The notes under the pieces: model-generated
Databases searched by the model: none
The model's input: only the letters and a program-made list of their open reading frames with translations
Told to the model about the DNA's origin: nothing
Position numbers and translations under genes: made by a program
Assembly: GCF_036924535.1 (NCBI RefSeq)
Contig: NZ_JAZHRT010000001.1
Span: forward strand, 8,184,001 to 8,248,000
DNA from: Bradyrhizobium sp. AZCC 2262
GTDB lineage: Bacteria > Pseudomonadota > Alphaproteobacteria > Rhizobiales > Xanthobacteraceae
Length of the DNA stretch: 64,000 nt
Reading direction: 5' to 3'
Shown here: piece by piece, positions 272 to 4,554 of the stretch
How the letters are laid out: each line of letters starts with the position of its first letter
How positions within the stretch are numbered: the first letter of the stretch is position 1

Positions 272-730
272 TCAGCGTCCAGTCGAGCCGAAACCGCCAC
301 TGCCGCGATCGGTTGCTGAAAGCGACACCACCGGAACCAGTTGCGCCTGCACAACCGGCGCAATCACCATCTGCGCGATGCGCTCGCCGCGCCGGATCGG
401 GAACGGCGTATCGCCGTGATTGATCAGGAGGACGTTGATCTCGCCGCGATAATCCGCGTCCACCGTGCCCGGCGAATTCAAGACGGTAACACCATGCTTG
501 GCGGCAAGCCCGGAACGCGGCCGCACCTGCGCTTCAAAGCCGGAAGGCAGGGCTATTGTGAGCGCGGTCGGCACCATCGCGTATCTGCCCGGTGGCAGGA
601 TCAGCGGCGTGTCCGCGGGAACTGCGGCCAGCAGGTCGAGCCCGGCGGCATCCGCGCTCTGATAGGCTGGCAGCGCGAGACCTTCGCCGTGCGGCAATTG
701 GTGGATATCGACCTTCACTGTCGCGCTCAC
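272..730 (-). CDS. dut: dUTP diphosphatase (dUTPase)
   Basis: Hydrolyses dUTP to dUMP and pyrophosphate, keeping uracil out of DNA and feeding dTMP synthesis; homotrimeric and cytosolic in this family. The 152-residue length is typical. Conserved motifs are visible: PRSGLA followed by the [14 protein letters not shown] block, then RGERIAQMV, and the glycine-rich tail [10 protein letters not shown] that closes over the active site. The start is GTG at 728-730, overlapping the coaBC stop in a GTGA arrangement, so translation is probably coupled to coaBC. The coaBC-dut pairing is common in bacteria. Confidence 0.96.
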
Positions 731-2166
731 GAATTCTTCTCCACGGTTTTCGCAATCTTCGCCACCAGTTCGGCTGCGACCTGCTCCTTGGTCATCACCG
801 GCCAGGACTCCACCTCGATGCTGTTGGCGTTGGTCTCCTTGCCGTCGCGCGTCAGCAGGTGAACGGTGTTGCGGTCGCCGCCCATCACGCCGGTTGCGGG
901 CGAAACGTCATTGGCGACGATCCAGTCGCAGCCCTTGCGCGCGATCTTGGCCTTGGCGTTGTCGATCAGATGCTCGGTCTCGGCGGCAAATCCGATCACC
1001 AGCGGCGGACGCCTGTCTGTCAATTTCGAGATCTTCGCGAGAATGTCGGGGTTTTCCACCAGTTGCAGCGGCGGCATGCCGGCTGCGGTCTTTTTCAGTT
1101 TCTGCTCGCCTTCGTTGGCGACGCGCCAGTCGGCTACGGCGGCTGCGAAGATCGCGATATCGGCCGGCAAGGCGGCCTCCACCCGATGCAGCATGTCGCG
1201 CGCCGATTCCACCCGGATCACCGTGACGCCCGCCGGATCGCGCAATTCGACCGGGCCGGAGACCAGCGTGACGTCGGCGCCTGCGGCTTGTGCGGCGGCG
1301 GCGATGGCAAAGCCCTGCTTGCCGGAGGAGCGGTTGGCGATATAGCGCACGGGATCGATCGCCTCATGCGTCGGTCCCGCCGTGATCAGCACGCGCTTGC
1401 CTGCGAGCGGACGCGGTCGCGGCGGACGAAGGATGTCGACGGCGGCGGCTGCGATTTCAATCGCCTCCGACATCCGCCCGACGCCGGCTTCGCCTGACTC
1501 AGCCATCTCGCCGGCGTTGGGGCCGATCATGTGGACGCCGTCGCGCCGAAGCTGCAGCACATTGCGGCGGGTGGCGGCGTTGTTCCACATCAAGGGATTC
1601 ATGGCGGGCGCCAGCAGGATCGGCCGGTCGGCGGCCAGCAGGATCGCGCTGGCGAGATCGTCGGCATGGCCTTGCGCCATCTTCGCCATCAGGTCGGCGG
1701 TTGCCGGCGCCACCACGATCAGATCGCATTCGCGGGCGAGGCGAATATGGCCGGCGTCGAATTCGCTGCCGGGGTCGAACAGATCCGTATAGACGCGCTC
1801 ATGCGACAGCGCGCTGGCGGAAAGCGGCGTCACGAATTGCTGTGCGGCCCTGGTCAGCACGCAGCGGACGTGAACGTGACGCTCTTTCAGCCGCCGGATC
1901 AGTTCCAGCGACTTGAAGGCGGCGATGCCGCCGCCGATGATCAGGGTGACGCTCCGTTCGCTGGCGGTGCTGATGCGCTGCGGGGCTTGTGCGGGGCCCT
2001 CCGAGGACGGCGGCGACACCGCTGCGCCAGGAAATTCGGCGCGCTGTATGAGCTCTCCGAGGATGACCCGGACTTCCTCTTCGACGGAGCGACCGTTTCC
2101 AGCCGAGCGGACACGCAGATAGGCTTTGACGGTCTCGTCGAGTTTTCGGATGGTCAGGCTGGCCAT
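727..2166 (-). CDS. coaBC: Bifunctional phosphopantothenoylcysteine decarboxylase / phosphopantothenate-cysteine ligase with an N-terminal ribbon-helix-helix domain
   Basis: Carries out two steps of coenzyme A synthesis: CTP-dependent joining of cysteine to phosphopantothenate (CoaB, C-terminal half) and FMN-dependent decarboxylation (CoaC). Of 479 residues, about 73-250 are CoaC ([34 protein letters not shown]) and the rest CoaB ([24 protein letters not shown]). Residues 1-45 are not part of normal CoaBC. They match FitA-type antitoxin DNA-binding domains ([25 protein letters not shown]). A Pro/Ser linker (about 46-72) joins them to CoaC. The start is ATG 2164-2166, preceded by GGGAGG. A palindrome lies 32 bases upstream of the start. 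The gene overlaps dut by GTGA. Confidence 0.96.
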
Positions 2167-2197
2167 GGGCGCCTCCCGCGACAAGTGCAGTCAATGC

Positions 2198-2212
2198 TAG
2201 CACAATGTGCTA
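2198..2212 (-). promoter_or_regulatory. Palindrome in the coaBC promoter, FitA-like half sites
   Basis: TAGCACA and TGTGCTA form a perfect 7+7 inverted repeat around one central base, in the 55-base gap between the ubiB stop and the coaBC start. On the plus strand the wider site reads TGCTAGCA, 5 bases, TGCTATCA. TGCTATCA is, as I recall, the half site bound by gonococcal FitA. The likely reader is the ribbon-helix-helix domain of CoaBC itself; this is inference. Confidence 0.5.
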
Positions 2213-2221
2213 TCACTGCAA

Positions 2222-3796
2222 TCACAATTGGCGGATGGCGACCAGAATTCCGATAAAGGTGACCGCGATGATCCAGAGCGCCACCGTCCGCCAGCGGCTC
2301 TTGCGGCCCTCGGCCCGGCCCATGGCTGCGATCGTCTCCGGCGACAGCGTCAGGCCCTCCCGGGTCATCTTCTCCATGTTTTCGAGCACGGCAACCGCCC
2401 GCGAGGCGATCGCCGGCAGGCTCCCCATCACCCGGCCGAGTTCGCCCGCGCCTGACATCGCGCCCTGAATTCGCCCGAGTGGACCGAGGTTGCGCTCGAT
2501 CCATTCGCGCACCACGGGATCGGCGACCTTCCAGATGTCGAGCTTGGGGTCGAAACCCCGCGCGACCCCCTCGACCACCACCATGGTCTTTTGCAGCAAG
2601 ATCAGTTCGGGCCGGGTCTGCATGTCGAACAGGCCGGTGACTTCGAGGAGAAGCGTCAGCAGCTTCGCCATCGAGATTTCTTCGGCTGTGCGGTTGTGGA
2701 TCGGCTCGCCGATGGCGCGGATGGCTTGCGCGAAATTCTCCACCGAGTGATGGCCCGGCACGTAGCCCGCCTCGAAATGCACTTCCGCAACGCGGCGGTA
2801 GTCGCGCGTGATGAAGCCCAGCAGAATTTCAGCGAGGAAGCGCCGCTCCTTCAGCCCGAGCCGGCCCATGATGCCGAAATCGACCGCCACCAGCCGGCCG
2901 GCATCGTCGAGAAACAGATTGCCGGGATGCATGTCGGCATGGAAGAAGCCGTCGCGTAGCGCATGGCGCAGAAAGCTCTGGATCACCTTGCGACCGAGAT
3001 CGGGCAGGTCGACATGCGATTGTTCGAGCCGCGCATGGTCGTTCAGCGCGATGCCGTCGATCCACTCCATCGTCAGCACGTTGTGGGTGGTGCGATCCCA
3101 GTCGACGGTCGGCACGCGGAAATCCGGATCGTCGCGCGTGTTCTCCGCCATCTCCGACAGGGCGGCCGCCTCGAGCCGCAGGTCCATCTCCATCGCGACC
3201 GAGCGCGACATCGTGTTGATGACCTCGATCAGCCGCAGCCGCCGCGCTTCGGCCGAATGCGCTTCCGCATTGTGCGCGACAAAGAAAAAATCGCCGAGGT
3301 CACGGCGGAAACGCGAGGCGACATTGGGCCGGAGCACTTTCACCGCGACCGATTTGCGTAGGCCGTCCCGTTCGGTCTCGCCGCGATGCACCTGGGCGAT
3401 CGAGGCGGCGGCGACCGGCGGGCCGAGGCTGACAAACGCTTTAGCCAGAGGGCGTTCCAGCGACGCGGCGATCACGGCCTCGGCTTCGGCTTGCGAAAAC
3501 GGCGGCAGCCGGTCCTGCAGGCTTTCCAGGTCGCGTGCCATCGCGACGCCGACCACGTCGGGCCGGGTCGCCAGAAATTGCCCGAGCTTGAGATAGGCCG
3601 GTCCGAGCCGCGTCAGTGCGCGCGACAGCCGCGGGCCGGATTTGGCGCCGGGGCGTTCGATCAGCCGCGCCAGCCGCAGCGCGAGCTGTCCGGGCGGCGG
3701 CACGAGACTTGGGTCGACGACGCCGAACACGCCTTCGCGTGCAAACACGTAAGCGGCGCGGACGAGCCGCGCGATGTGGGTCGCCGCAGAAATCAC
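2222..3796 (-). CDS. ubiB: Ubiquinone biosynthesis regulatory kinase-like protein UbiB
   Basis: Atypical kinase-like ATPase of the ABC1/ADCK family, needed for ubiquinone synthesis at the inner membrane. Diagnostic motifs are present: the KxGQ motif as YLKLGQF, the Ala-rich nucleotide loop AAASIAQVH, the catalytic-loop region HADMHPGNL and the DFG equivalent DFGIMG. The C-terminus ends in a hydrophobic membrane anchor ([14 protein letters not shown]). The preferred start is GTG at 3794-3796 (524 residues), overlapping the ubiE stop as GTGA. A longer frame to 3847 would run far into ubiE. The ubiE-ubiB pairing supports the call. Confidence 0.94.
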
Positions 3797-4554
3797 AAAC
3801 GCCAGCCTGAATGCAACGCCACGATGCCGCCGGACAGGCTTTCCCACTTCACCCGCGCAAAGCCGGCGTCGCGGATCATCTCGGCAAATTGATTGGGCCG
3901 GGGGAATTTCCGGATCGATTCGACAAGGTACTGATAGGATTCCGCGTCGCCCGTCACGGCGCGGCCGAGCGGCGGGATCACCTTGAACGAGAAGAAGTCG
4001 TAAAGCCGGTCAAGCCCGGGAACGTCGACGGTGGAGAATTCCAGGCACAAGAATCTGCTGCCGGGCCGCAGCACGCGATAGGCCTCGCGGAGCGCAGCAT
4101 CGATCCGCGGTACGTTGCGAATGCCGAACGCGATGGTGTAGGCGTCGAAGCTGCGATCGCGGAGCGCCAGCGCCTCGGCATTGCCCTCGACGAATGAAAC
4201 CTGCTGGTCGAGATGACGCGCCAGCGCCCGGTTGCGGCCGACCTCGAGCATATCAATATTGATGTCACAGACGGTGGCGTGGAAGCCGGCGCCTGCCGCC
4301 TCGGCCGCGCGGAAGGCGATGTCGCCGGTGCCGCCCGCGACGTCGAGCAGGGCAAAGGGCGCATCGACTTTCGGCGGGTTGAGCGCATTGATCATGATGT
4401 CTTTCCAGACCCGGTGCAGGCCTCCCGACATCAGATCGTTCATCAGGTCGTAACGGGACGCCACGCTATGAAATACGTCGTTCACCAGCGTCTGCTTGTC
4501 CCCCAGGGGCACGTCCCTGAAGCCAAAATGGGTGGTTTGGTCCGGCCGATCCAT
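3793..4554 (-). CDS. ubiE: Ubiquinone/menaquinone biosynthesis C-methyltransferase UbiE
   Basis: SAM-dependent C-methylation of the quinone ring precursor in ubiquinone synthesis. The 253-residue protein starts [12 protein letters not shown] at ATG 4552-4554. A TTG one codon earlier is possible. Visible motifs are the UbiE N-terminal block [20 protein letters not shown], the SAM-binding loop [13 protein letters not shown], and [16 protein letters not shown]. It is translationally coupled to ubiB (GTGA overlap) and divergent from mutM, whose start lies 79 bases away, so the two share a short promoter region. Confidence 0.96.

Follow-up and report, generated by a model that had tools for sequence, protein, structure and literature searches.

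A CoaBC enzyme with a FitA-like DNA-binding head and a matching operator array in Bradyrhizobium: a probable autogenous repressor of coaBC-dut

BirA and NadR are enzymes of cofactor pathways that have a DNA-binding domain and act as transcriptional regulators, and in the repressor MetJ ribbon-helix-helix (RHH) dimers bind tandem 8-bp boxes. To our knowledge, little is known about the transcriptional control of bacterial coenzyme A (CoA) synthesis. Trifunctional PutA of Escherichia coli is described as a bifunctional flavoenzyme with an N-terminal RHH domain that acts as an autogenous repressor, and such an RHH head still works when grafted on (PMC5293562). The antitoxin FitA has a C-terminal toxin-binding region (PMC5086665), and the structure of Neisseria FitAB was solved in complex with a 36-bp stretch of the promoter that precedes its own genes (PMC3920265, PMC5086665). 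CoaBC of Mycobacterium smegmatis and M. tuberculosis is reported to be a dodecamer, and CoA and its thioesters are reported to inhibit mycobacterial CoaB by competing with CTP and phosphopantothenate (PMC7794376).

The stretch of DNA analysed here (64,000 nucleotides, hereafter the window) contains coaBC (dfp) at 730..2166 on the complementary strand, with its stop codon at 727-729. The encoded protein has 479 residues, with an N-terminal FitA-like RHH domain followed by CoaC and CoaB (PF22513+PF02441+PF04127, TIGR00521), and translation probably starts at the ATG at 2166, the point from which all 80 named loci match. The score for TIGR00521 is 389.6 bits against a cut-off of 219.7 (NCBIfam), both enzyme domains are present (PF02441 and PF04127, Pfam), and His140, Pro187-Pro191 (PAMNP), Asn278-Gly282 (NRSSG) and Lys359, to which we ascribe presumed catalytic roles, are invariant in 48 aligned fused CoaBC proteins. 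In structure and sequence searches alike the best PDB match of the CoaC-CoaB core was mycobacterial CoaBC 6TGV; its sequence match begins at residue 70, and the mycobacterial enzyme thus shares the core and lacks the RHH head. Downstream lies dut (dUTPase; 272..730, complementary strand; PF00692, 111 bits), whose GTG start overlaps the coaBC stop codon, so that the two genes are probably co-transcribed. Upstream, across a gap of 55 bp, lies a gene with an ABC1 atypical kinase domain (2222..3847, complementary strand; PF03109, 251.3 bits), which we take to be ubiB. The closest relatives by name are Bradyrhizobium, with the nearest loci 88-92% identical. Also observed was P0007, a natural fusion of CoaBC with Dut: its 623 residues comprise RHH, CoaBC and dUTPase domains.

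A sequence-only reading of this DNA had proposed a FitA-type RHH domain at the CoaBC N-terminus, and the profile search bears this out: PF22513 (FitA-like_RHH) matches residues 2-38 with 52.5 bits against a curated cut-off of 27 (E=4.8e-14 with the whole of CoaBC, 8.5e-16 with the first 60 residues alone). The domain spans residues 2-41 (2044..2163, complementary strand). Gonococcal FitA is the top PDB match of the head with a single-sequence query (E 0.012), and against a profile of 17 aligned RHH sequences it reaches 2e-7, with the Mnt repressor at 6e-4. The predicted CoaBC model, for which 48 aligned fused relatives served as input, has helices at residues 11-24 and 28-42; the RHH strand is absent from this model, which was built as a monomer. 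A stretch with pLDDT below 50 (residues 44-68) follows, and after it come the two enzyme domains. The 50 matches listed by a whole-protein fold search were CoaBC and relatives of its enzyme domains, with no match to the RHH head among them. All 83 aligned fused proteins have Arg7 (codon 2146-2148, complementary strand, within the RHH domain), and all but one have Thr5 (82 of 83). Arg7 aligns with an Arg of FitA in 2h1o and is presumably a DNA contact.

Between the head and the CoaC domain, which begins at about residue 70 (Pfam, 6TGV match), lies a variable, unstructured linker of residues 42-69 (1960..2043, complementary strand), where the toxin-binding tail of an antitoxin is absent; at residues 42-68 the mean top-residue frequency in the aligned fused proteins is 0.293. 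The tail of free FitA proteins from two relatives (L168, L218) is missing from the fused proteins aligned with them. For 77 of the 80 named loci (L032-L108, including a few metagenome-assembled genomes; 400 random pairs), dN/dS was 0.205 for the RHH domain, 0.580 for the linker, 0.145 for CoaC and 0.137 for CoaB. Purifying selection thus acts on the RHH head, with a constraint slightly weaker than in the catalytic domains.

The gap between ubiB and coaBC holds an operator that touches the ubiB stop codon, a 39-bp array (2186-2224) of four 8-bp half-sites on the complementary strand. Half-site A, TGATTGCA (2217..2224), has the ubiB stop codon as its first three bases. It is followed by B, TGATAGCA (2208..2215; TGCTATCA on the forward strand), seen in the sequence and in the composite search, by C, TGCTAGCA (2195..2202), and by D, TGACTGCA (2186..2193), with one departure from TGMWWKCA. 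From the ubiB stop, the coding strand of the gap reads TGATTGCA-G-TGATAGCA-CATTG-TGCTAGCA-T-TGACTGCA. The half-site steps are 9, 13 and 9 bp, which makes two pairs 22 bp apart, or about two helical turns. Half-sites B and C contain the palindrome TAGCACA-A-TGTGCTA that had been noticed before coaBC; it is exact at 2198-2212, separated from the ATG by 31 bases, and turns out to be the middle of the larger array. The TGCTATCA motif that the same reading had placed beside the palindrome does occur, at 2208-2215, but it overlaps the palindrome end rather than lying next to it. We take TGCTATCA to be the half-site of gonococcal FitA; a search for FitA with TGCTATCA gave no match in the open-licence literature.

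The bare palindrome, with up to three mismatches, is unremarkable alone (one match in the window, at least one in 42 of 100 shuffles). The 9.48-Mb genome has a single place that matches its extended form TGATAGCACATTGTGCTATCA, again with up to three mismatches, and a single exact composite TGMWWKCA-N-TGMWWKCA, which lies in the coaBC promoter region; both reversed controls gave 0. The genome-wide uniqueness of these forms, together with their link with the fusion described below, rules out the palindrome as a product of chance. The same genome yielded a single FitA-like RHH, in CoaBC itself, when 150 of 234 first-look candidates were scored.

A possible promoter was seen by eye under the operator (2194..2221, complementary strand), with a -35 TTGCAG at 2216-2221, a spacing of 16 bp and a -10 TAGCAT at 2194-2199; a consensus promoter scan of 2150-2300 returned nothing at threshold. 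A promoter-like pattern lies upstream of 57 of 83 fused versus 2 of 54 unfused coaBC genes, counts that are not independent evidence because the pattern overlaps the operator. In 16 of the 57 patterned fused genes (e.g. L131, L133, L135) the promoter-like -10 ends 5-8 bases before the start, an arrangement that suggests a leaderless coaBC mRNA in such relatives.

The N-terminal domain is common to relatives of the window's CoaBC. Among 149 genomes of the family searched, 147 had a CoaBC match and 130 loci were used, 83 fused and 47 unfused, a locus being called fused if its alignment starts at residue 1-2. Seventeen family genomes were left out (G004, G015, G020, G041, G044, G047, G048, G055, G058, G062, G085, G090, G103, G116, G126, G130 and G147); two of these, G020 and G147, carry the CoaBC N-terminus on fragments, and G062 gave an ambiguous match. 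The sequence-only reading had asked after the operator in relatives that keep the fusion, and it turned out to accompany the fusion and to be missing in front of unfused coaBC genes: a composite matching at least 14 of 16 positions lies within 120 bp of the start in 77 of the 83 fused genes (exact in 53 of the 77) versus 0 of the 47 unfused ones, for which the count is also 0 within 200 bp. Dinucleotide shuffles reached this score in 1.9% of 1660 cases, a comparison that is not blind, since the family sample had been inspected before the half-site pattern was defined. All 80 named loci have a composite of at least 15/16. In four of the six weak fused genes (L031, L117, L124, L152) the operator is displaced 156-291 bp upstream, still close to the ubiB end, with 16, 16, 15 and 14 of 16 positions (L031 has 14/16 only); these came from a 500-bp search, and the shuffle control covered 120 bp. 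By eye, the stretch from operator to start in these four loci is GC-rich, partly palindromic and repeat-like. The remaining two weak genes, L116 and L122, have degenerate sites of 13/16 only.

The same association was seen with genes fetched after the composite pattern had been fixed. An order search of 249 genomes, 242 with a CoaBC match, brought up a second family (f24) with the fusion in at least four genomes of one genus among the matches listed; further fusions may exist in the order, as fusions were counted among these matches only. All 4 fused genes of this second family have the operator (15-16/16), as against 0 of 7 unfused genes from it and two other families. The distances between exact half-sites of the 83 fused genes are 9 bp (77 times), 18 bp (26 times) and 22-23 bp (37 times), and no exact half-site pair was found in 54 unfused genes. 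CoaBC is present in all 60 Bradyrhizobium genomes, and a composite of at least 15/16 precedes coaBC in 59 of the 59 readable ones (exact within 150 bp in 49, 15/16 in 10 more); the gene of G421 is cut by a contig end and was left out of this count. In a class-wide sample of 114 genomes, 88 with a match, only the window's own match extends from the first residue across the enzyme; two further ones set in at residue 35, and the fusion was found in none of the other 87. A FitA-like RHH match within a 397-residue open frame was seen elsewhere in the same class (G482:C10:39973-40095), possibly another RHH fusion.

A catalytic-core tree was built by a quick method, with SH-aLRT support only, from 133 of 141 rows, the start motif having missed L141, L153, L168, L202, L203, L204, L209 and L210. 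On this tree the fused/unfused label must change at least 8 times, well-supported branches forcing 5 of these changes, and gains or losses therefore recur. An operator within 200 bp is present in 82 fused rows and missing from 3, and it is present in 0 unfused rows and missing from 48. Independent pairs agree on operator with fusion in five of five cases, these being the only five supported pairs (p=0.0625). From the co-conservation of the operator and the missing toxin-binding tail we infer that DNA binding is the selected property of the head.

The unfused relatives point to a source for both head and operator. In seven of 54 unfused loci at least one FitA-like frame precedes coaBC, and each of the seven also encodes a UbiB C-terminus, still farther upstream and in the same orientation. 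In L168, L201, L205 and L218 a PIN (FitB-type) frame comes after a Pfam-confirmed FitA head. In L170 and L187, from two different genera, fitA is open and the fitB toxin gene is apparently reduced to its two ends; the L170 fitA has His in place of Arg7 and an operator of 12/16 only. These two loci probably show a toxin-antitoxin module in the course of decay next to a coaBC without the fusion. L219 carries a tandem of two FitA-like frames next to an unfused coaBC, and near relatives in its genus are fused; a short-motif search found no PIN frame there, and since this motif served for the toxin search in all unfused loci, a divergent PIN gene could be missed. The operator lies directly upstream of fitA in five of the seven loci (14-16/16; L170 and L205 have 12/16 only), and these five are the only ones among the 54 unfused loci with an operator in a stretch of about 1.2 kb upstream. 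PIN genes beside coaBC were found in some unfused relatives only; in the window no PIN toxin gene adjoins coaBC, which is flanked by the ubiB-type gene and dut.

The simplest account of these loci is that the toxin was lost first and the downstream enzyme then captured the head of a resident FitA, while the operator remained where it was. Head and operator were probably captured more than once, as suggested by the occurrence of L187 in a mostly fused genus and by the second family being a separate branch. FitA-to-fusion relations were compared through pairwise identities of the 41-residue heads only.

The 60 Bradyrhizobium genomes contain 72 exact composites, 51 at coaBC (in 49 genomes) and 21 elsewhere, the latter above the 7 of the reversed control. 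No FitA-like RHH was found within 1.5 kb on each side of these 21 sites, and 12 of them overlap a stop-to-stop frame of at least 600 bases; a wider regulon was therefore set aside, as no second target was found. Two composite-like sites away from coaBC do recur in several Bradyrhizobium genomes (L226, L230, L240, L244, and L225, L227, L235).

Combining the antitoxin DNA-binding half with the matching site array in the promoter region, we conclude that CoaBC probably controls its own gene. With a probability of roughly 80%, we read it from the sequence as an enzyme and an autogenous repressor in one, with a head from a FitA antitoxin that represses coaBC-dut through the array. Autorepression is the best-supported reading because the array lies at the expected promoter place and because of the dodecamer and CoA inhibition known from mycobacteria. 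The RHH domain is matched to the operator by association, and the sense of control (repression) and the oligomeric state of CoaBC are assigned by analogy. A fitA-fitB module would once have sat between ubiB and coaBC; the toxin gene would then have been lost and the FitA head fused to CoaBC, while the operator stayed. RHH domains would pair on the 8-bp half-sites in the coaBC promoter region, and array-bound CoaBC would repress coaBC-dut, giving negative feedback on CoA synthesis. If CoaBC is a dodecamer as in mycobacteria, its 12 heads would make six RHH dimers, and up to four of these could fit on the array. It is a guess that DNA binding responds to CoA or a substrate bound to CoaB or CoaC. 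A fuller version, to which we give somewhat less than even odds, is a CoA-sensing trigger enzyme: CoA or acyl-CoA at CoaB would make the dodecamer grip the array and turn coaBC-dut off, substrates would release it, and within the order the circuit would have arisen on more than one occasion, through the capture of a resident FitA head along with its operator.

Four other readings can be weighed against autogenous repression. The RHH domain might bind the array mainly to recruit the enzyme to the nucleoid, or might activate coaBC-dut; sequence cannot separate binding from the sign of control, and an operator over the presumed promoter suits repression and is no proof of it. As PutA is described as repressing its own regulon (PMC5293562) and vapBC modules, the class that includes FitAB, as negatively autoregulated (PMC3920265, PMC3384007), we hold this improbable. 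The head could instead be a vestige and the operator serve another regulator, given that another RHH protein could read an earlier operator. The lower dN/dS of the RHH domain than of the linker and the complete retention of Arg7 speak against such a vestige, and so does the genome of the window, where the candidates scored included no other FitA-like RHH; among the 54 unfused loci, moreover, every operator that was found precedes a free fitA. This makes the vestige a distinctly poor prospect.

The family of the head would also fit a fusion that is still an antitoxin and neutralises a FitB-like toxin elsewhere, a reading that we regard as very improbable with the tail of the free FitA proteins missing, the linker variable and ubiB and dut as the neighbours in the window. 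Finally, the RHH domain could mainly change the assembly of CoaBC, with DNA binding secondary, and in a PutA chimaera an RHH domain does impose dimerisation (PMC5293562); the conserved operator would then be left unaccounted for, and we give this almost no weight. Autogenous repression by CoaBC, the preferred reading, has a described precedent in PutA, where an RHH head makes a flavoenzyme an autogenous repressor (PMC5293562).

In both PutA and CoaBC the RHH domain is N-terminal on an enzyme, PutA being a different enzyme from a different pathway, proline use, and two features of PutA-like control recur here: a DNA-binding domain fused in frame to the enzyme, in 83 family genomes, and a matching operator in the promoter region of its own gene. 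Unlike that of PutA, the CoaBC head belongs to the FitA antitoxin family, and relatives carry such a module at the same place, mostly with the same operator. CoaBC shares the FitA-like RHH (PF22513) with the VapBC-type FitA-FitB system but is without an adjacent toxin gene and without a toxin-binding tail, its head being fused to a biosynthetic enzyme. BirA and NadR differ from CoaBC in having other DNA-binding folds and serving other cofactors, and MetJ is a stand-alone repressor; the commonest step in the CoaBC operators is 9 bp. In the open-licence literature searched, we found no paper on CoaBC or phosphopantothenoylcysteine decarboxylase with a ribbon-helix-helix domain and nothing on an antitoxin-derived ribbon-helix-helix domain fused to an enzyme of the pantothenate pathway; the open-licence matches for phosphopantothenoylcysteine with autoregulation were unrelated, judged by title and the start of the abstract. 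Three things look new here: the enzyme with its pathway, the antitoxin as source of head and operator, and the loci that appear to be intermediates.

The locus offers a self-contained candidate circuit for the control of CoA synthesis in a well-studied legume-nodulating genus. Its relatives also lay out an apparent route from a toxin-antitoxin module to housekeeping regulation, with the toxin present, then shrunken, and the head finally fused to the enzyme, the operator being mostly kept.
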